Under the pieces are notes generated by a model, which saw only the letters and a program-made list of their open reading frames with translations, had not been told where the DNA came from and made no database searches. Positions 1,253 through 34,078 of a DNA stretch of 35,463 nt are shown here, piece after piece. The position numbers and the translations under genes were made by a program. This DNA comes from Clostridia bacterium (GTDB taxonomy: Bacteria > Bacillota > Clostridia > Oscillospirales > Acutalibacteraceae): assembly GCA_017537245.1 (NCBI GenBank), contig JAFYLD010000033.1, forward strand, positions 1 through 35,463, written 5' to 3'. The first letter of the stretch is position 1. Every line of letters begins with the position of its first letter.

Positions 1253-1645
1253 ATGAAAAAAATCAAACTCAATCAGAATTCAGAAACGATAATAGGTGGA
1301 TACATACTTAATCCTACTGAAAAATATGTAATAAATTTAGCTGAAGAAATGGAATTTCAATCGGCAATTATGGGTTCCTTTCAAATTATGGGACGTCCAC
1401 CTGCACTTAAAAACTATCATGCTTGGCTTTTTGAAAACGGATTTAGCGTTGATGCTCCGAATCCGACAAATGAATTTGTTGCTCCATATTATGGTGTAAA
1501 ACCTCTTTGGGAAACGGAATATTCTCAAGGAATTGTGGTCAAGGATGAGAATGATAGCGATTATTTTATTGTTATGGAATGCAGCGATAAAAACAAGGGA
1601 TATAAACACACTCAAATAATACTTACTTTAGGTGGTTGTATGTGA
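1253..1645 (+). CDS. Uncharacterised 130-aa protein
   Basis: 130 aa, soluble, mixed alpha/beta composition, with no family I can name. Visible features are a basic N-terminus (MKKIKLNQ), a Trp/Tyr/Pro-rich middle (residues ~55-85) and a short beta-like C-terminus ending GGCM. AGGAGG stands 7 bases before ATG 1253, 18 bases after the DUF4365 stop. The stop TGA at 1643-1645 overlaps the GTG start of the next gene (GTGA), so translation of the two is probably coupled. It could be a small accessory or antitoxin-like partner; nothing in the sequence shows this directly. Confidence 0.6.
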   Translation: MKKIKLNQNSETIIGGYILNPTEKYVINLAEEMEFQSAIMGSFQIMGRPPALKNYHAWLFENGFSVDAPNPTNEFVAPYYGVKPLWETEYSQGIVVKDENDSDYFIVMECSDKNKGYKHTQIILTLGGCM

Positions 1646-3021
1646 ATGAGTTGCAAAATAATAATACAATGATTGATACTTATGAGAAAACAATTTTACG
1701 ACTAATAGCATCATATCTAAGAGCGTATCCAGAACATGTAGAACTAATGAATAATATAGCTTGCTTCTTAGGTGTGAATTTTGACTTAGATATTATACAA
1801 CAATATATTAATGAAGAATGTTTTAATGATTTATTTCATCTTGATTATGATTTATTAAAGTGCATTATTAACTATTATTTAATACAAAAATCTATCAAGG
1901 AAATAGGTTTTGACTGTTCTAAGAAAACATTAGAAAAAAACTATAATATCTATAAAAGTATATCAGATAATATTTGCATGATGAATATGAATGCTGGGGC
2001 ATATGAATGCATGTGTAATCATGCCTTTTCTAAAGAGCATGCGCCGCAGTCTTTTGAATCATTTCATCCGACTGATTATACACAAATTTTAGATGTTTTT
2101 GTGTTTTATGATGATTATTATGAAAAAAATAAAAACTATTTGCCTGCTGTTTATGAGATAATAAGTTATCAGCTTATAAGTCATTCGCTGGCAATGTTTT
2201 TAATAATTATAATGCAAGTGATAAAACATTCGGTTTATCTAAATGATACAGTCAAAAAAATAGCATCGGAAATATACGATAATACACACAAACTATTAAA
2301 AGATGCACGCATAATTGTTATACGTCCTAATTTTCTGTACTTGGACACAGAAAAACCTTCTGAAAATAGAACCAGAGAGTCTGATAATACAACTAGATTG
2401 CATATCGTCTATGGATATGATAATTTTGATGCATATAGTTTAAGATTTGATTTTTGTCATCAAGGCATTAATTGGATACACTATAATAATGAGAGTCCAG
2501 GTAAAGTAAGTAGTTATTGTTTAACAAAAAAGGAATATGACAGTATTGTTTCTAAATTCCCTAAAATGAAGAATTGCTTTATTGAGCATAATAATTGCTA
2601 TTTTTTGAAAGAAAGAATAAATTGCGAGTTAGATGAGTTTGCTGAATTTGATAAAATAGAGGATGCCAAAAAGCACGCATATGCATTTAATCAGGAGTAT
2701 TCAGAATCTGATGTATTGTTTGTTTTAGATTTAATTAATATTTTTCTGACAAATGTTTCTCAAGGGTATGCGGATAAAACCGGAGAGGCCGCTAAATATG
2801 CATTTAATTTGGATTATTTGATGTGTAGATTGGAACTGATGAATATTTGTAGAATCGCAGGCAATACAGAATATGAAAAAATATTTGCTGATACAATCGT
2901 TGATAAAGCAGTAAATTATGGCTTGCTCAACGATAAAGAAAAAGAAAGTTTTAATTCTTTAGATGGATTGTGTATGATAATTAAACTTGCAAAAGAAAGA
3001 TGCGGGAGAATATATAGTTAG
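1642..3021 (+). CDS. Uncharacterised 459-aa protein, last gene of accessory operon
   Basis: I chose GTG 1642 as the start because it overlaps the upstream stop by four bases (GTGA) and has AGGTGG 7 bases upstream. TTG 1636 is the alternative in the same frame. The protein is about 459 aa, rich in Ile, Asn, Tyr, Lys and Asp, with strongly AT-biased codons compared with the core genes further right. It appears mostly helical. A hydrophobic patch near residues 178-198 (SLAMFLIIIMQVI) could be one membrane-associated helix or a buried one. I recognise no catalytic motif. It closes the operon with the HipA-like and DUF4365 genes; an imperfect case for a defence or toxin role rests on context only. 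Confidence 0.6.
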   Translation: MNELQNNNTMIDTYEKTILRLIASYLRAYPEHVELMNNIACFLGVNFDLDIIQQYINEECFNDLFHLDYDLLKCIINYYLIQKSIKEIGFDCSKKTLEKNYNIYKSISDNICMMNMNAGAYECMCNHAFSKEHAPQSFESFHPTDYTQILDVFVFYDDYYEKNKNYLPAVYEIISYQLISHSLAMFLIIIMQVIKHSVYLNDTVKKIASEIYDNTHKLLKDARIIVIRPNFLYLDTEKPSENRTRESDNTTRLHIVYGYDNFDAYSLRFDFCHQGINWIHYNNESPGKVSSYCLTKKEYDSIVSKFPKMKNCFIEHNNCYFLKERINCELDEFAEFDKIEDAKKHAYAFNQEYSESDVLFVLDLINIFLTNVSQGYADKTGEAAKYAFNLDYLMCRLELMNICRIAGNTEYEKIFADTIVDKAVNYGLLNDKEKESFNSLDGLCMIIKLAKERCGRIYS

Positions 3022-3756: not shown

Positions 3757-5136
3757 ATGGATGAAAGATTATTAGAACTAGAAGAACAAATCTTTGAACT
3801 AATAGAGCATCGCAGATTTGTTCAACTAAAAGAAGTTTTGTCAGAAATGCAACCTGCCGATATTGCCGAAATTTTTGAAGAAGCAAAAGATAAAGAAATA
3901 CCGGTTCTTTTCCGTATTTTGCCAAAGGAACTTGCAGCAGAAGTTTTTGTTGAGTTTGATAGCGACAAGCAAGAGATTCTTGTAAATTCGTTTAGTGATA
4001 TGGAGCTTCGTCAGGTGCTTGACGAGTTGTTTATGGACGACGCGGCAGCCATCGTTGATGAAATGCCCGCTACCGTTGCAAAGCGAATACTCAAAAACAC
4101 CGACGCCAACACCCGCCGTATGATCAATCAATTGCTTGCGTACCCCGACGATAGCGCAGGTAGTATTATGACTACCGAGTATATCGATCTTAAACGTAAC
4201 ATGACGGTTGACGATGCGCTTGATCGAATTAGAAAAATTGGTTTTGACACCGAAACAATATATACTTGCTACGTTATTGGTAGCAGACGAACCTTGTTTG
4301 GTACAATATCTCTTAGAGATTTGTTGCTTAATAGCAAGGACGCTATCATTGGCGATTTGATGGATGAAAACATTGTATCGGCACACACCTTAGACGATAA
4401 GGAAGAGGTTGCCGCAATGTTTGACCGATACGATATGTTGGCGATTCCTGTCGTTGATAACGAGGGTCGTTTGGTTGGTATCGTTACGGTTGACGACGCT
4501 ATCGACGTCATTCAAGAAGAGGCTAGCGAAGATATCGAAAAGATGGCGGCGATTTTGCCGAGTGAAAAGACATATCTTAAAACAGGTGTGTTCGAAACCT
4601 TTAAATCGCGTATTCCGTGGTTGTTACTCCTTATGATTTCGGCAACCTTTACGGGCGCTATTATTTCAAGTTTTGAGGCGAAACTTGCACAGTGTATTGC
4701 TCTTGTCGCGTTTATTCCAATGCTTATGGGTACGGGTGGTAACTCGGGTAGCCAGACGTCTGTTTCGGTTATACGCGCTATAAGTCTTGGCGACATCGAG
4801 TTTAGAGATATGATGCGCGTTATTTGGAAAGAACTTCGCGTTTCGTTAATTGTTGGCGTTGTTTTGGGTATAATCAACTTTATAAAACTTTATTTGGTTG
4901 ATTATTTGTGGCTTAAAACCTTTGACACAGGCGCAGAGTTTGGCGAGATGCTTACAATATGTTTAACACTTGTTCTGATAGTTATAGTTGCTAAGTCGCT
5001 TGGTGCGGTACTACCAATGGTAGCAAAAAAATGCGGTCTTGACCCGGCTGTTATGGCAAGCCCACTAGTTACAACAATTCTTGACGCCGTATCACTTTTA
5101 ATTTACTTTGGTATAGCGGCAGTTTTGGTTTTATAA
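3757..5136 (+). CDS. mgtE: Magnesium transporter MgtE
   Basis: 459 aa, the usual family length, preceded by AAGGAGG 8 bases before ATG. MgtE is a homodimeric Mg2+ channel of the inner membrane gated by cytosolic Mg2+. Domains in order are the MgtE N domain (about 15-130), two CBS domains (about 137-195 and 200-258), a connecting helix, and five membrane helices (about 285-459). The pore signature GGNSGSQ is at 327-333, and the conserved pore aspartate in SPLVTTILDAVSLL is D443. Acidic residues in the N and CBS domains are plentiful, as expected for the Mg2+ sensor. It is a single-gene transcript with a consensus promoter and a strong terminator. No M-box precedes it. Confidence 0.96.
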   Translation: MDERLLELEEQIFELIEHRRFVQLKEVLSEMQPADIAEIFEEAKDKEIPVLFRILPKELAAEVFVEFDSDKQEILVNSFSDMELRQVLDELFMDDAAAIVDEMPATVAKRILKNTDANTRRMINQLLAYPDDSAGSIMTTEYIDLKRNMTVDDALDRIRKIGFDTETIYTCYVIGSRRTLFGTISLRDLLLNSKDAIIGDLMDENIVSAHTLDDKEEVAAMFDRYDMLAIPVVDNEGRLVGIVTVDDAIDVIQEEASEDIEKMAAILPSEKTYLKTGVFETFKSRIPWLLLLMISATFTGAIISSFEAKLAQCIALVAFIPMLMGTGGNSGSQTSVSVIRAISLGDIEFRDMMRVIWKELRVSLIVGVVLGIINFIKLYLVDYLWLKTFDTGAEFGEMLTICLTLVLIVIVAKSLGAVLPMVAKKCGLDPAVMASPLVTTILDAVSLLIYFGIAAVLVL

Positions 5137-5144
5137 TTAAAATT

Positions 5145-5183
5145 AAACCCCTTTGTGAAATCACAAAGGGGTTTGTTTTTTTT
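5145..5183. terminator. Bidirectional terminator between mgtE and the ATPase gene
   Basis: AAACCCCTTTGTGA (5145-5158) pairs perfectly with TCACAAAGGGGTTT (5161-5174), two-base loop, followed by GTTTTTTTT on the plus strand. The minus-strand ATPase gene stops at 5182, inside the T tract, so the convergent genes share the element. Confidence 0.9.
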
Positions 5184-7758
5184 ACTGTTTTGCAATGATT
5201 TTTGGCATTGCAATTTTTTTGATTTCGCTTACCGGAATAATAACTAGCGCTAAAATCAAACTTAATATAAATGAGCCAAGACTCAAAGTTTCTAGACCAA
5301 ATACTAAACCTGCAGGGGTAAGTACTAAGAAGATTGAAATAAATAGTACCAAAACCGATGAGAAGTTCATAAATTTATTGGTCTTGAAGTCCGCTTTAAG
5401 AAGCGATTGTTGGGTTTTCATATTATACGAATGGAAAATTTGTACCATTGCGAGTGTAGCAAATGCCATAGATTGACCACCAAAAGCAAAAGCAATAAGT
5501 GTTAAAACGGCAATAACTAACGAGTCGCTTAACATATTTAGTAGTGCGTTTCTGCTAAACAAGTGACCCGAAAGGGCAAGCGGTTTTTTGTGCATTACGT
5601 TAGCTTCTGATCCTTCAACTGTAAGTGAAATAACACACGTGCTATCGGTTAGTAGGTTTATCCACAAAAGCTGTATTGCGGCAAGAGGTGGTAAACCAAA
5701 AATCAACATACCAAAGAGATAAGCTAATATTTCGCCAAAGTTACAAGCAAGTAGATAAGTAACCGACTTTTTAACATTATCAAAAAGAGCTCGGCTTTCG
5801 CGAACGGCGTTTACAACCGACATATACTTTTTATTTTTAATAATAACATCTGCATTACCTTTTGCAGCATCTGCGCCATATTGACCAACGGTGCAACCAA
5901 TATCGGCAACGTTAAGAGCGTCGGCGTCTTCAAAGCCGTTGCCTGTAACGGTAACAAGCTTGCCTTTTGACTGCCATGCTTTGATAATTCTTATCTTGTC
6001 GCTAGGAGAAATTCGTGCGAATACGGTATATTGTTCAATGTTTTCATAAAGCTGTTCATCAGATAGTTTATCTAATTCTGCGCCGGTTATCGCTTGACTA
6101 TCGTCGCTAAGTATACCAATTCTACGAGCAACAGCTTTTGCTGTAAGTATGTTGTCGCCAGTAATCATAATGCTGTTAATACCGGCAAGATTACAGGTGC
6201 TAATAGCTTCTACAGTGTCTGATTGTGGAGGATCATTGAGCGCCAAGATACCAACAAACGTTAGGTCGTTTTCTATTTCTTGTGAGCTCGGATTTGATGA
6301 AAGCTCGTCAAGTGGTTTTATTGCAACGCAAATTACTCGATATGATTTTTCTGCGAGAGTGTTACAAAGTTCTAGTATTTTATCTTTTTCGGGTACGTTG
6401 CAATTTTCGATTAGCATTTCTGGTGCGCCCTTAACTATTGCTACGGGTTTACCGCTAATCATATTGATGCTTGTCATCGTCTTGCGCACGCTATCAAAAG
6501 GAATAGCGGCAAGGCGAGGGAAGAGATTGCTAACGTCGGGGTATGAAAGCGACATATACTTGATAGATGCGTTTTCAATGCATTTTTCGGTAGCGTCGTT
6601 ATCAAGCATTGTGCAAGCGGTCGCTAGCTGTAAAACACCAGCGGTTTTATCGCTTAATTTTTCATCGCCTAGCTCAGTTAGTTGATCACCATCAAATATC
6701 AAATTAAGCGTCATGTTGTTTTTGGTAAGAATACCTGTTTTGTCAACGCAAATAACCTCGGTCTTACCGATAATTTCAAGCGCTTTAATGTTTTTGATAA
6801 TGATATTATCGTCAATCATTCTCTTAATGCCAAGTGCGATAACTATTGTAGAGATAGCAGGCAAGCTTTCGGGCATAGCGGTTATTCCAAGCGCTACCGA
6901 ATTCATCAGCCAATTAACGGTAGTAAGCGCAAAGTCACGCGAATGAAAATTTTGTAGCATACCTATGATAAACGCTAATACGCAAAATACAAAAATAGAT
7001 ATATTTATAAGTTTGCCACTAGTTGCGAGTGTTTCGGTAATTGGTAACGTTTCTGAATTTGTTTGGCGACTTATATCGGTTTGTTTACCAATTTCGGTAC
7101 AAAGGCCGGTTTCAACAACCACTACACGCGCGCTACCATGAGCTACGCTACAACCTGCAAATACCATGTTTTTGCGGGCTGTAACTATTGTTATGTCATC
7201 AAATACTGCGTTAGCGGTTTTATCAACGGGAATAATCTCACCCGATAATATTACCTCGTTACAACGAAGAGCTTCTGCCTCAATTATTCTAGCATCAGCG
7301 GTAATATAGTCGCCCTCTTTTAGAAGCATTATATCACCGGGTACTAGCAAATTAGAAGCGATTTGCTTTTCACCGCCATCGCGAATTACCGTAACCGTTG
7401 GGTTAGATGCGTTTTCGATAGTTTCGAGCGCTTCGTCGCATTTATAAAGATGCAACGCGCTTATAAATGCATTTACAACAACTATCGCAATAATAAGCAA
7501 GGGGAAATAAAAGTCGTTTTTATCGTAAAAAACGTTTACGACAAAACAGATAATAGCAACCGCTATTAAGAAATACACAACTTTACTTTTAAGTTGTGAC
7601 AAAAAACGTGTTAACAAACTTTTTTTGTTTGTAGTAGCTGTGGTGTTTTCTCCGTAAATTTCAAGTCTTTCAAGAGCTACACTATTTGCAAGACCACTTT
7701 CTTTTGTTACGGAAAGGTTAGTTAGCACGTCACTTATTTCTGAACTATGCCAAATCAT
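5182..7758 (-). CDS. P2-type (Ca2+-like) cation ATPase with degenerate catalytic motifs
   Basis: 858 aa, full length for bacterial SERCA/PMR1-like pumps. The order is N-terminal cation-ATPase domain, two membrane helices (~60-105), actuator domain, membrane pair (~250-312), P and N domains, then a C-terminal membrane bundle (~665-850). Ion-site residues of the family remain: E297 in helix 4, N673 and E676 in helix 5 (CNFGEI), N701, T704 and D705 in helix 6 (NLLTD). KGAPE (443-447) and TGDN (533-536) are intact. Core motifs deviate: DKTGILT at 339-345 (usual DKTGTLT), SGEI at 172-175 (TGES), PESLP at 296-300 (PEGLP), GNGFED at 606-611 (GDGxND), NDPPQ for DPPR. The phosphorylated D339 is kept. 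GGAG precedes ATG 7758, 18 bases after glyA, so the two are co-transcribed. Activity is uncertain. Confidence 0.85.
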   Translation of the reverse strand: MIWHSSEISDVLTNLSVTKESGLANSVALERLEIYGENTTATTNKKSLLTRFLSQLKSKVVYFLIAVAIICFVVNVFYDKNDFYFPLLIIAIVVVNAFISALHLYKCDEALETIENASNPTVTVIRDGGEKQIASNLLVPGDIMLLKEGDYITADARIIEAEALRCNEVILSGEIIPVDKTANAVFDDITIVTARKNMVFAGCSVAHGSARVVVVETGLCTEIGKQTDISRQTNSETLPITETLATSGKLINISIFVFCVLAFIIGMLQNFHSRDFALTTVNWLMNSVALGITAMPESLPAISTIVIALGIKRMIDDNIIIKNIKALEIIGKTEVICVDKTGILTKNNMTLNLIFDGDQLTELGDEKLSDKTAGVLQLATACTMLDNDATEKCIENASIKYMSLSYPDVSNLFPRLAAIPFDSVRKTMTSINMISGKPVAIVKGAPEMLIENCNVPEKDKILELCNTLAEKSYRVICVAIKPLDELSSNPSSQEIENDLTFVGILALNDPPQSDTVEAISTCNLAGINSIMITGDNILTAKAVARRIGILSDDSQAITGAELDKLSDEQLYENIEQYTVFARISPSDKIRIIKAWQSKGKLVTVTGNGFEDADALNVADIGCTVGQYGADAAKGNADVIIKNKKYMSVVNAVRESRALFDNVKKSVTYLLACNFGEILAYLFGMLIFGLPPLAAIQLLWINLLTDSTCVISLTVEGSEANVMHKKPLALSGHLFSRNALLNMLSDSLVIAVLTLIAFAFGGQSMAFATLAMVQIFHSYNMKTQQSLLKADFKTNKFMNFSSVLVLFISIFLVLTPAGLVFGLETLSLGSFILSLILALVIIPVSEIKKIAMPKIIAKQ

Positions 7759-7776: not shown

Positions 7777-9018
7777 TTAGTCGTTATATATTGGAAACTG
7801 TGCGCAAAGGGCCTGTACTTCGGCGGTGATACGTTCTTTATTGCCTTCAAAGTCGGTGATAATATCTTTAATCCAATCAGCAATAAGGAGCATTTCCTTT
7901 TCTTTAAAGCCTCTTGCGGTAACAGCTGGTGTACCAATACGCAAACCACTAGTTACAAATGGGCTGTTAGGATCGTTTGGAATAGTGTTTTTGTTAGCGG
8001 TAATGTGAACCTCGTCAAGACGATGCTCAAGTTCTTTACCGGTAATACCAAAGTTAGTAAGTTTTAAAAGCATAAGATGGTTATCGGTGCCATCAGCAAC
8101 TAACTCAATACCGTTTTTCTTTAGCGCGTCTGCAAGTGTAGCGGCATTTTTAACAATTTGTTGTTGATATGCTTTAAATTCATCGCCAAGCGCTTCGCCA
8201 AGCGCTACTGCCTTTGCAGCAATTATGTGCATTAAAGGACCGCCTTGTGTGCCCGGGAATATAGCTTTGTCAATTTGCTTTGCTAATTCTTCACGGCACA
8301 AAATCATACCGCCACGTGGACCACGAAGAGTCTTGTGAGTTGTGGTTGTAACAACGTCGGCATAAGGAACAGGTGATGGGTGAAGTCCTGCGGCAACAAG
8401 ACCTGCGATGTGCGCCATATCTACCATAAGGTAGGCGCCAACTTCGTCGGCAATTTCGCGGAACTTTTTAAAGTCGATAGTTCTTGAATACGCGCTAGCG
8501 CCCGCAATGATCATCTTTGGTTTGCATTCAAGAGCAATTTTGCGAACGTTTTCGTAGTCGATAACTTCGGTCTCGTCATCTACACCGTAAGGAACAATGT
8601 TAAAGTATTTACCTGAAATGTTAACAGGTGAGCCGTGAGAAAGGTGGCCGCCTTGTTGCAGGTTCATACCCATAACTGTATCGCCCGGTTCGAGAAGGGC
8701 AAAGAATACGGCAAGGTTAGCGTTAGCGCCACTATGTGGTTGAACGTTTGCATGCTGGGCTCCAAAAAGCTTTTTAGCGCGTTCGCGAGCAATTTCTTCT
8801 ACAACGTCTACACACTGGCAACCGCCGTAATAACGCTTGGTAGGATAACCTTCTGCGTATTTATTTGTAAGTACTCCGCCTGCGGCGAGTAGTACTGCTT
8901 TTGAGACAATATTTTCTGATGCGATAAGTTCGATATTGCCTTGTTGACGGGCAAATTCTGCGTCACAAGCGGCAAAAACCTCGTTATCGTAATTTTTTAG
9001 TTCGTCGAAAAAGTTCAT
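7777..9018 (-). CDS. glyA: Serine hydroxymethyltransferase
   Basis: 413 aa from ATG 9018, which has GGAG 10 bases upstream; a longer frame to 9054 lacks a ribosome site. The enzyme converts serine and tetrahydrofolate to glycine and 5,10-methylene-tetrahydrofolate using pyridoxal phosphate in the cytoplasm. The PLP lysine is K229 in the block [16 protein letters not shown]. Also present are SENIVSKAV near the N-terminus, [14 protein letters not shown] (55-67), QPHSGANAN (93-101) and [10 protein letters not shown] (198-207). Length and motifs are typical. It leads a two-gene operon with the P-type ATPase; I see no metabolic link between the two. Confidence 0.97.
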
Positions 9019-9068
9019 TTTAATAACTCCTTTTTTGGTGCTATAATACACCATTTTAATTATAAATC

Positions 9069-31416: not shown

Positions 31417-32451
31417 ATGAAGGATTTTGAGATTTTAAGCCGTGATACAGTTGTTGCTGTTTGGAAAGATAACGAGCTTAAAGTTTTGAACAATGATTTA
31501 TTGCCGTTATACTTAAAGCGTGTAAACGATGCTAAATCTTGGCTTGAAACAAGAGCTATCGATTCGCATAGAGCAAACTCCCGTCTGCTTAAAAAGGCTT
31601 TAAGACTTGCTGAAAAAGATGATGTTTCAACCGTACTTCACGTTAATGCCGCAACTATCACCGATACCTATTGGGTTAGGGCTATCGGCAGTGGTTTAAA
31701 ATACCAAGATGTTCGCTTTAATAAAGACTATTTCTCCAATCTGGCTTTACGTGGACTTTATTCAAGCTTTAATTCTGCCGCAAAGCGTAAGGATACCAAA
31801 ACACCGGAGCTTACCAATATCGGTAGCTTTGAAAAGTGTTGGAAGCTGAAAGATGGAAAATGGTGGATTTATAAGTCAGCTAACCAAAAAGAGCAGTTTT
31901 CAGAACTCTTTGTATATGAGATTGGTAAAGAACTTGGAATGAATATGGCTCACTACGAAAAAGGTGATAAATGTGTAAAATCTCTTGATTTTACTGATTC
32001 GGCAAAGGTCATATTTGAACCTGCATCATCCTTTATGGGAGATGAAGAAGATTATATTAAAGTCGTTGAGAAGTTAAAAGAACTTTGTCCTAAAGCAATT
32101 CCTGACTATATTAAAATGATTTTCCTTGATACCATAACCGCCAACCCCGATAGACACACAGGAAACTTCGGTTTAATGCGTGATGTAAAAACCGGTGAGC
32201 TTTTAGGTCTTGCACCAAACTTCGATAATAATATGGCGCTTATTGCACGTGGATATCCTACAAGTAAATCCGCAAACGACCTTTTAATTACACTCTTTAA
32301 TGAACTAATGGAAAAATATCCTGGGTATAAGGAATACTTGCCAAAAGTCACAGAGCAGATGATTAAGAAAGTTATCAGCAAACTTAATATGAAGGTTAAA
32401 TCTCAAGTAATTGTTGATTTCGTAATTAAACGTTATCAAGCAATTAAATAA
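31417..32451 (+). CDS. HipA-like serine/threonine kinase
   Basis: 344 aa with AAAGGAG 9 bases before ATG. The C-terminal half carries the HipA-type catalytic core: K153 in WWIYKSAN as candidate ATP lysine, E163 in QFSELFVYEIGKELG, catalytic D245 with N250 in NPDRHTGNFGL, and the metal aspartate D270 in PNFDNNMA. HipA toxins phosphorylate tRNA synthetases or other targets and are silenced by the HTH partner HipB. Here the N-terminal ~140 residues differ from the classical HipA couple domain, and no HipB-like HTH gene adjoins. It is preceded by the VbhA-like gene and has its own promoter and terminator. Target unknown. Confidence 0.75.
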   Translation: MKDFEILSRDTVVAVWKDNELKVLNNDLLPLYLKRVNDAKSWLETRAIDSHRANSRLLKKALRLAEKDDVSTVLHVNAATITDTYWVRAIGSGLKYQDVRFNKDYFSNLALRGLYSSFNSAAKRKDTKTPELTNIGSFEKCWKLKDGKWWIYKSANQKEQFSELFVYEIGKELGMNMAHYEKGDKCVKSLDFTDSAKVIFEPASSFMGDEEDYIKVVEKLKELCPKAIPDYIKMIFLDTITANPDRHTGNFGLMRDVKTGELLGLAPNFDNNMALIARGYPTSKSANDLLITLFNELMEKYPGYKEYLPKVTEQMIKKVISKLNMKVKSQVIVDFVIKRYQAIK

Positions 32452-32782: not shown

Positions 32783-34078
32783 ATGTTTTCTTTTAAAAGC
32801 AAGTCCGCTATAGGAAAAAACTCAAATAACAATATAGTTATTCAAAACAGTACGTTAACTAATTTTGTGACAAACGCTCCTGCAGAAACTGTTGGGCTTA
32901 TGGCTAAGTATGAGGCGTACGAAGATATACAACAATATGTTCAATCCGTTATGACTACGGTTCGAAATACCCACCCTTTGTTTCCTACGTTTTCAGCGAC
33001 CTATAGCGCAGAGTTAGAAAAACTAATTAGCACTCCCGAAACCGCCGATGCATTTGAAAAGCATCCTAAAAAAATAAAGGGCACTTTTCAAATTGATTAT
33101 AAAAAATATCCACATATGGATAAGGCGGAAACCCCTTGGGAATATGCGTATCGTACACAAACTAATGTGGAATTAGCGACAAAATCCTATACGGAATATC
33201 TAGGGGAAACTAAAGATCCATTTCCGGTAGCAGAATATACCGAAGGAATGGTGACGGTTATTGGTTTTAACGAATTTCCTCCGGCAGTTAATGCGGTTGT
33301 TGAGTCTGGTGATATATCTATACCAATTTTACTTCGGAGAAAACCAAGTTTTAAATTTGGTGAACTACTTCTTGGTAATGAATCAACAGGACACGGCTTT
33401 AATATAAGCATAAGTACAGATGAATCACAAAAGAATACTACTATTAATTTTTTGAAAGTTGAAGATTGTGATTTAAAAGCTCATCTTGCTTGCGAAGAAT
33501 TGTTAGACGCTATATATACCACCAAGAAAATTGTGATAAAAGTCAAAGACGTCGAACTTATGGGTGCTATGATTAATGAATCTGAACTTACAAGCAATAT
33601 TTTTCAAAACGCCAAGGTTCTAAAGACGTATATAAAAAATTTACTTACAATAGAACAATATACTGGCTGTAAGTTTAATCCTAATATAGGCGAAGTTTCA
33701 TTTGACGATATTGAAACCTCAATAATAATGGCTGCATCGCTTGAAGGGAAATGGAGATTAAGAACACTTTCGTTTGATGATGCTGTTAGATGTGATTACG
33801 ATCAAATCCCAGACGATATCGCTGATTATGATGAGGTTGATTCTGAATCCGTAGCGGAAATGAAAGTTTTATCTATAGATTTGCACGGTGAATCTTTTAC
33901 CGCCGAAAAATTCATTATCGTTTATAGAGATGCTAAAATAAACAACATAGCATCCGTTCTTAAAAATGTTAAAAAGAAAAAGAAAAATATTCTTTTAACT
34001 ATGAAGCCGATGGGTGGGAAAGATGTGTTCTGCAAGTATCAGTTTATGGACGGCATAACACATATCCCCAAAGAATAA
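32783..34078 (+). CDS. Uncharacterised 431-aa protein sharing the NN-VIQNS motif
   Basis: 431 aa from ATG 32783; AGGAGG lies about 13 bases upstream, a rather long spacing. The N-terminus has KSAIGKNSNNNIVIQNS (8-23), echoing the tail of the small membrane protein before it. The remainder is soluble, alpha/beta, with a Lys-rich run (KNVKKKKKNI) near the end and a final KYQFMDGITHIPKE. I see no nuclease, NTPase or protease motif. Second gene of a two-gene unit with its own promoter and strong terminator; it lies in an accessory zone next to toxin-like genes. A defence or surface-sensing role is possible but unproven. Confidence 0.65.
   Translation: MFSFKSKSAIGKNSNNNIVIQNSTLTNFVTNAPAETVGLMAKYEAYEDIQQYVQSVMTTVRNTHPLFPTFSATYSAELEKLISTPETADAFEKHPKKIKGTFQIDYKKYPHMDKAETPWEYAYRTQTNVELATKSYTEYLGETKDPFPVAEYTEGMVTVIGFNEFPPAVNAVVESGDISIPILLRRKPSFKFGELLLGNESTGHGFNISISTDESQKNTTINFLKVEDCDLKAHLACEELLDAIYTTKKIVIKVKDVELMGAMINESELTSNIFQNAKVLKTYIKNLLTIEQYTGCKFNPNIGEVSFDDIETSIIMAASLEGKWRLRTLSFDDAVRCDYDQIPDDIADYDEVDSESVAEMKVLSIDLHGESFTAEKFIIVYRDAKINNIASVLKNVKKKKKNILLTMKPMGGKDVFCKYQFMDGITHIPKE

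Follow-up and report, generated by a model that had tools for sequence, protein, structure and literature searches.

The P2A-type ATPase gene carried by a 35,463-nucleotide (nt) stretch of DNA from Clostridia bacterium GCA_017537245.1 (contig JAFYLD010000033.1, family Acutalibacteraceae; the whole stretch is called the window) encodes a full-length, calcium-pump-like protein with altered catalytic loops. This altered variant is fixed in its genus and is under purifying selection, and it looks like a maintained variant rather than a dying gene. We propose that the protein is a selectively maintained P2A-derived cation ATPase in which the TGES and GDGxND loops have been remodeled, that it can still be phosphorylated, and that its Mg2+/dephosphorylation step is probably slow. 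The sequence evidence leaves this proposal about evenly balanced between right and wrong.

The ATPase frame (5182-7758) was intact, with an ATG start, 858 codons and a stop, and GGAG lay 7 bases before the ATG. A sequence-only reading of the same DNA had described the frame as unbroken over 858 codons and had listed 5 altered motifs (SGEI, PESLP, DKTGILT, NDPPQ, and GNGFED); each was found at the residue numbers it had quoted, and the strand, which it had not given, is minus. It had also reported that D339, KGAPE, TGDN, and the ion-site residues of helices 4-6 were kept, and motif reading and alignment confirmed this (KGAPE at residues 443-447, TGDN at 533-536). SGEI retains the catalytic Glu of TGES (SERCA E183), the only changes being T to S and S to I; the Ser of the dephosphorylation loop is lost. 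The Mg2+ loop reads GNGFED instead of GDGxND, with Asn for the first Asp of GDG and Glu for the Asn three residues further on. DKTG was retained with Ile for the Thr at +4, a departure from the P-type ATPase signature DKTGT[LIVM][TIS]. All 5 cation-site residues of a P2A pump (SERCA E309, N768, E771, N796, and D800; aligned sites carry the SERCA numbering) were present. The Pfam domains Cation_ATPase_N, E1-E2_ATPase, Cation_ATPase, and Cation_ATPase_C followed one another in that order with no extra Pfam domain, the A, P, N, and membrane domains had the order of the P-type superfamily, and the query scored 225 bits against TIGR01494 (HAD-IC profile; cut-off 62.3).

Residues were counted in 60 altered sequences from the genus (59 with both loops; a few nearly identical), 8 altered sequences from other genera, and 127 canonical sequences. 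The canonical set (126 with both loops, not fully de-duplicated) consisted of sequences outside the genus clade and is partly motif-defined, because motifs were the criterion for removing the 8 altered proteins found in other genera. Among the 59 altered genus sequences, GDGxND was intact in 0, TGES in 3, and DKTGTLT in 1; the corresponding counts in the partly motif-defined canonical set were 126, 124, and 125 of 126. The departure of the query motifs from the canonical pattern is not due to chance. The TGES Glu was lost in 32 of the 59, the GDG Asp in 20, and both in 9; most of the genus kept the first Asp of GDGxND, the changes in that loop being at the Asn and at the second Gly, usually to Ser. 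SERCA-aligned K352, T353, T441, E442, K515, R560, T625, G626, D627, R678, K684, and D707 were unchanged in 60 of 60 genus sequences, and the phospho-acceptor D351 was kept in 59. Cation-site residues were also largely retained (E309 in 54, N768 in 56, E771 in 55, N796 in 58, and D800 in 57 of 60). The canonical set had 189 columns with conservation of 97% or more; 90% or more of the altered genus sequences kept the residue in 94 of these columns, and fewer than half did so in 49.

Seventy genomes of the genus, its own included, were searched with PF00689 and the motifs of the matches were then read; an N-terminal piece in G030 came from a protein search and was added. An altered P2-type ATPase was present in 62 of the 70, of which 5 were read only in part (G017, G030, G036, G061, and G066) and 2 were interrupted (G014 and G017). 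A canonical copy was found in 17 genomes, beside the altered copy in 14 and alone in 3 (G024, G025, and G082). G068 yielded an uninformative fragment only, and the PF00689 search gave no match in G029, G031, G073, and G074 (G073 and G074 being 67% and 57% complete). In 48 of 70 genomes no P2-type ATPase other than the altered one was found. Of these 48 assemblies, 29 were at least 90% complete, and in the others a second copy may have escaped the search. The query's own assembly (1.59 Mb) held one P-type ATPase by Pfam PF00122 and one Cation_ATPase_C, and no second canonical P2A pump was found in this 79.6% complete assembly. The canonical paralogues of the 17 genomes had normal TGES, DKTGTLT, and GDGxND motifs (L282 shows only GDGxND), with PEGLA and DP[AV]R in 7 of them. 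The sequence-only reading had left open whether any lineage has such variants fixed, a question to be answered by aligning relatives; the altered loops recur across the genus, and fixation there answers it.

Selection was estimated as pairwise NG86 ratios of nonsynonymous to synonymous change (dN/dS). Values were 0.041 for L011/L014 (dS 0.77), 0.065 for L155/L156 (dS 0.47), and 0.055 for L004/L005 (dS 1.22), and the three closest informative pairs fell at 0.04-0.07. The query and L003 gave 0.056 at a nearly saturated dS of 1.93, and L033/L076, L032/L076, and L032/L033 (dS 1.3-1.4) gave 0.096-0.132. Within the query's subclade the range was 0.045-0.147 where computable, many pairs being saturated, and the altered set peaked at 0.169 (L252/L253, dS 1.87). 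Canonical pairs lay at 0.046-0.074, with one at 0.230 (L086/L101, dS 0.51). In 4 of the 14 genomes with both copies, dN of the altered copies was 1.7-3.1 times that of the canonical copies in all 6 pairs. The neighboring glyA product was 93-96% identical to those of eight close relatives, and their ATPases were 65-82% identical. Taken together, the higher dN and the low dN/dS indicate that the altered ATPases evolve more quickly than an ordinary pump, yet at a rate well below the neutral one.

These data bear on two alternatives. Simple decay of a pump gene, as a pseudogene under relaxed selection, would fit the faster protein change relative to the canonical paralogue, internal stops in L023 and L029, and the upper dN/dS values (0.15 within the query's subclade, 0.17 for L252/L253). 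The low ratios of the subclade and of the closest pairs speak against it, however, as does the canonical pair L086/L101, which itself reached 0.23. Apart from L023, L029, and L206 (an unresolved C-terminal piece), the flagged stops, including those of L013, L062, and L065, lay past the natural end of the frame, and the query frame is intact with its GGAG. We therefore rejected decay, on dN/dS, frame integrity, and lineage-wide occurrence, as very improbable. The sequence-only reading had reserved the same explanation for the case of canonical close relatives combined with relaxed selection; none of the relatives at 45% identity or more was canonical in all three motifs in the motif tables, and dN/dS was low. 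An assembly, frame, or alignment artefact might be suspected, as the named altered relatives among the matches listed were all metagenome assemblies or "uncultured" records. The pattern nevertheless appears in 62 separate genomes, and the canonical paralogues of 17 genomes have normal motifs, so that an artefact is in effect refuted and its probability is negligible.

Acidic residues in the two loops were analyzed in 61 de-duplicated genus rows, 60 of them with a readable TGES loop. Asp or Glu occupied position 3 or 4 of TGES in 59 of 60 rows, and when position 3 was non-acidic, position 4 was acidic in 16 of 17 (Fisher p = 0.00035, rows related). Likewise, 59 of 61 rows had at least 2 acids in the GDGxND loop, and the Asn position was acidic in 15 of 18 rows that had lost the first GDG Asp versus 9 of 43 otherwise (Fisher p = 8e-6, rows related). 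In each altered loop an acid is usually retained, at times at a shifted position. By row count both associations are unlikely to be chance, but the rows are related, and 3 changes at the GDG Asp (D703) and 8 at the TGES Glu suffice on the tree. At the TGES site, 4 independent pairs scored 1.0 the same way versus 0.1 the other way, which is too few pairs, and neither association was significant among 18 altered proteins of other genera. The row counts suggest charge compensation but do not prove it, the tree-aware test giving it no support. The sequence-only reading had expected that loss of the Mg2+ ligand and of the end of TGES would impair the catalytic cycle, and had suggested a slow pump, a sensor, or a pseudo-ATPase, all three of which are still candidates. 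The GDG Asp and the TGES Ser are indeed gone, but its premise of simple loss of function is weakened by the acids that nearly every genus row retains in both loops.

Altered proteins were also found outside the genus. The family was sampled by a draw of 200 and then 398 genomes, and motifs were read in 113 loci (29 + 40 + 44), which were the top of the rankings plus suspicious second copies and not a random sample; some genes were fetched twice, and six loci were in the genus. Eighteen different altered sequences came from genera g73, g92, g93, g98, g115, g117, g132, g140, and g149. DKTG was kept in 18 of 18, and several lacked cation-site residues. Ten of ten aligned loci from other families of the order had TGES and GDGVND. 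The scan of genome contigs gave at least 80 loci, and the breadth described here is that within the family. A tree built without the motif columns from a chosen subset of 84 rows (22 altered from the genus, 18 altered from other genera, and 44 canonical) had one branch separating the 40 altered from the 44 canonical rows (SH-aLRT 98), and the genus clade had support of 100. In this unrooted tree, midpoint rooting placed five altered rows (L194, L252, L253, L258, and L262) on the canonical side, outside the canonical group. The tree was a quick search with no bootstraps and had several long branches. A single origin of the altered proteins is the simplest reading, and long-branch attraction could have gathered independently altered ones.

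An AlphaFold2 model of the query, built from a 29-row genus alignment, had a mean pLDDT of 82.6 and a pTM of 0.71. All 50 Foldseek matches listed were P2 ATPases, the first by E-value being LMCA1 (6zhh, TM 0.57). The highest TM-scores among the matches listed were to SERCA1a with phospholamban (0.88), SERCA1a E1.Mg2+ (0.87), and SERCA E1 with sarcolipin (0.84); Na,K-ATPase E1.3Na+ scored 0.84 and LMCA1 E1-Ca (9evc) scored 0.83. Since the highest scores were to E1-state structures, the model is E1-like, and the predicted fold is intact. Against TIGR01522 and TIGR01116 the query scored 440 and 409 bits (cut-offs 798 and 703), but the canonical L034 and L134 also fell short (683 and 648; 660 and 633). 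TIGR01517 (PMCA-type; cut-off 507.05) was passed by L034 (526.7) and L134 (515.3) and failed by the query (348). On these profiles, the query belongs to the P-type superfamily but does not reach the curated thresholds for Ca2+ pumps of the SERCA, PMR1, or PMCA type.

In the mechanism we favor, ATP would bind in the usual N/P cleft, a divalent cation would bind between M4, M5, and M6, and phosphorylation would take place on D339. A rearranged motif IV, GNGxED, which resembles the DD form of this motif in HAD enzymes, would hold Mg2+, and the altered TGES loop would hydrolyze the aspartyl phosphate either slowly or by a different route. The outcome would be a low-turnover pump or a cation-gated phospho-switch. 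In the pump, Mg2+ mediates an interaction between D351 and D703 (PMC11208427), and dephosphorylation is described as depending essentially on the TGES loop (PMC11977196). Given these two roles, and because the ATP and acceptor residues are kept whereas the Mg2+ side and the TGES loop are changed, a protein that is phosphorylated but has slow or different turnover would be most likely. HAD enzymes hold metal with motif IV as DD, GDxxxD, or GDxxxxD (PMC8475336, PMC12715507), and by this analogy GNGxED or GNGxDD may represent a change of motif IV from the GDxxxD type to the DD type. Our view of phosphorylation, turnover, substrate, and role is inferred from the residues kept and lost. Several observations weigh against the proposal. 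Cation-site residues were lost in L073, L074, L133, L016, and L209, which favors loss of pumping in parts of the clade. In L073, L074, and L133, members of one branch, most of those in M4-M6 were gone (PAxMP, CSLSV/ICTAI, LFLN/LLAN) with DKTG kept; dN/dS for L073/L074 was 0.058 at saturated dS, and L074 and L133 seem to be a single gene present in two collections. An intact 860-amino-acid member (L065:1172-3751; the same gene in L212) has NKTGILT, with Asn for the phospho-acceptor Asp; it too favors loss of pumping in parts of the clade and is a candidate for a P-type ATPase that naturally lacks all catalysis. In addition, the 2 independent pairs for D703 on supported branches scored on average 0.2 the same way versus 0.3 the other way, so that the tree-aware test did not support coupling of the acids at 703 and 706 despite the row counts. 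With NKTG in L065/L212 and cation-site loss in a few branches, there may be no single answer for the whole clade.

Two further explanations keep an intact gene. The protein could be a normally active pump for Ca2+ or another divalent cation, its loop changes compensated and its turnover near normal. The lack of any other P2-type ATPase among those found in 48 of the 62 carrier genomes (29 of the 48 at least 90% complete) is consistent with such a pump, as are the retained cation and ATP residues, the acids kept in both loops, and the co-orientation of the gene with housekeeping genes. However, a change in GDGxND was seen in 0 of 126 canonical relatives (a partly motif-defined set), the Mg2+ interaction and the role of the TGES loop described above speak against it, and the protein changes 1.7-3.1 times faster than its canonical paralogue; we consider a normally active pump unlikely. 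Alternatively, the protein could be a true pseudo-pump, with no catalytic cycle, that serves as a cation- or ATP-binding sensor, scaffold, or regulator. The intact L065/L212 protein points that way, as does cation-site loss in L073, L074, L133, L016, L209, and L269 and, in other genera, L161, L194, L200, L252, L253, L255, L258, and L262. A human protein without TGES, TMEM94, is reported to bind a nucleotide analogue but to show no ATPase activity (PMC12134183). In contrast, almost every member of the clade has the same phosphoryl-transfer residues, which is hard to explain if catalysis is unused, and none of the 18 altered proteins of other genera has lost DKTG; we regard a pseudo-pump as likewise unlikely.

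Gene context was compared in 29 neighborhoods (28 loci of genome contigs plus the window), with families confirmed on representatives; the features of the window are given in Table 1. The glyA gene lay directly upstream of the ATPase gene in 13 of 29, the window included, with purB before glyA in 6 of the 13, and a HAD phosphatase gene plus a TIM-barrel gene lay directly upstream in another arrangement seen in 13 of 29. L062, L065, and L068 had neither glyA nor the HAD/TIM-barrel pair upstream; L068 has purB. In the window, glyA and the ATPase gene are probably co-transcribed, and co-orientation with housekeeping genes would speak for expression. The mgtE gene was a tail-to-tail neighbor in 6 of 29 neighborhoods, the window included, and a special partnership with MgtE was rejected as a general rule on that count. 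No dedicated partner gene was found in the 29 neighborhoods. That the HAD phosphatase acts in trans on the pump is only a thought, its gene not being beside the query ATPase. In the neighborhoods that have it, this small HAD gene (PGP_phosphatase-like; for example L064:6626-7126) may lie beside an ATPase with altered dephosphorylation loops by coincidence. A search of 20 loci for selected neighbor families gave no match for a context shared with canonical or other-genus relatives, a weak null because there was no positive control and many loci had 0.3-1.5 kb of flank.

Table 1. Coordinates of the features discussed, in positions of the window.
Feature	Position	Residues	Strand	Basis or remark
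P2A-type ATPase with altered catalytic loops, 858 amino acids	5182..7758		minus	Open reading frame, Pfam/NCBIfam families, Protein Data Bank, model and fold
A-domain loop SGEI, replaces TGES	7234..7245	172-175	minus	Motif alignment; TGES in 3/59 genus sequences
M4 PESLP, replaces PEGLP, cation-site Glu kept	6859..6873	296-300	minus	Glu in 54/60 genus sequences
Phosphorylation loop DKTGILT, replaces DKTGTLT, phospho-acceptor D339	6724..6744	339-345	minus	Asp in 59/60
NDPPQ, replaces xDPPR	6223..6237	508-512	minus	Genus: Arg 50/60, Gln 9/60
P-domain loop TGNGFED, replaces TGDGxND	5926..5946	605-611	minus	GDGxND intact in 0/59 genus sequences
glyA (serine hydroxymethyltransferase)	7777..9054		minus	18 bp upstream of the ATPase gene, same strand; family profiles
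mgtE magnesium transporter	3757-5136		plus	Tail to tail with the ATPase gene

Elsewhere in the window, a 461-amino-acid frame at 1636-3021 (plus strand) had no Pfam or NCBIfam match. A HipA_C-like frame at 31417-32451 (plus strand) scored just below the Pfam cut-off (30.2 versus 30.5 bits), and the 431-amino-acid frame that follows it at 32783-34078 had no Pfam match.

P-type ATPases are taught as a superfamily with nearly unchanging TGES, DKTGT, and GDGxND loops. Across ten genera of one gut Clostridia family, a class of these enzymes may have had its HAD core rewired and may now act as a cation-gated phosphoprotein switch, with a signaling or structural role where the cation site or acceptor is lost; we hold this broader view to be possible but doubtful. 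The rewiring would have moved motif IV from GDxxxD toward the DD form in some branches and shifted the A-domain carboxylate along its loop. If true, this lineage would be, to our knowledge, the first in bacteria of pseudo- or transceptor P-type ATPases, and its intermediate steps would still be alive. Searches of the open-access PMC literature, at the level of search listings, found no description of a bacterial lineage of this kind, which is weak evidence of novelty given that scope. A large living clade with variable loops and fixed ATP and phosphoryl-transfer residues is a natural mutagenesis series. It could show which loop residues each step (phosphorylation, dephosphorylation, coupling) requires, and whether a bacterial pump has become a sensor. 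The automatic label "Ca2+-transporting ATPase" may be wrong for genomes with an altered copy.

Among known systems, the best solved relative is LMCA1 (lmo0841), the Listeria P2A Ca2+-ATPase (E 1e-133), which has the same domain order. LMCA1 has canonical DKTGTLT, TGES, and GDGVND motifs and Ala at the position of SERCA E771, whereas the query has Glu there. Compared to the SERCA/SPCA P2A Ca2+-ATPases, the query keeps the ATP, phosphorylation, and cation-site residues and a similar fold but differs in TGES, DKTGT, and GDGxND, all of which are altered. TMEM94 (ERMA) likewise has P-type architecture without TGES, and its status as pump or pseudo-pump is disputed (PMC12134183, PMC13322241). It is eukaryotic and larger, with a steric block at D417 and no detectable Mg2+ binding reported for it (PMC12134183); in the query, DKTG and the cation residues of a P2A pump are retained. 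The P4-ATPase-like domain of Plasmodium GC-beta, part of a signaling protein, has lost most signature residues (PMC6592433). That domain is fused to a guanylate cyclase, in contrast to the query, in which Pfam showed no additional domain.

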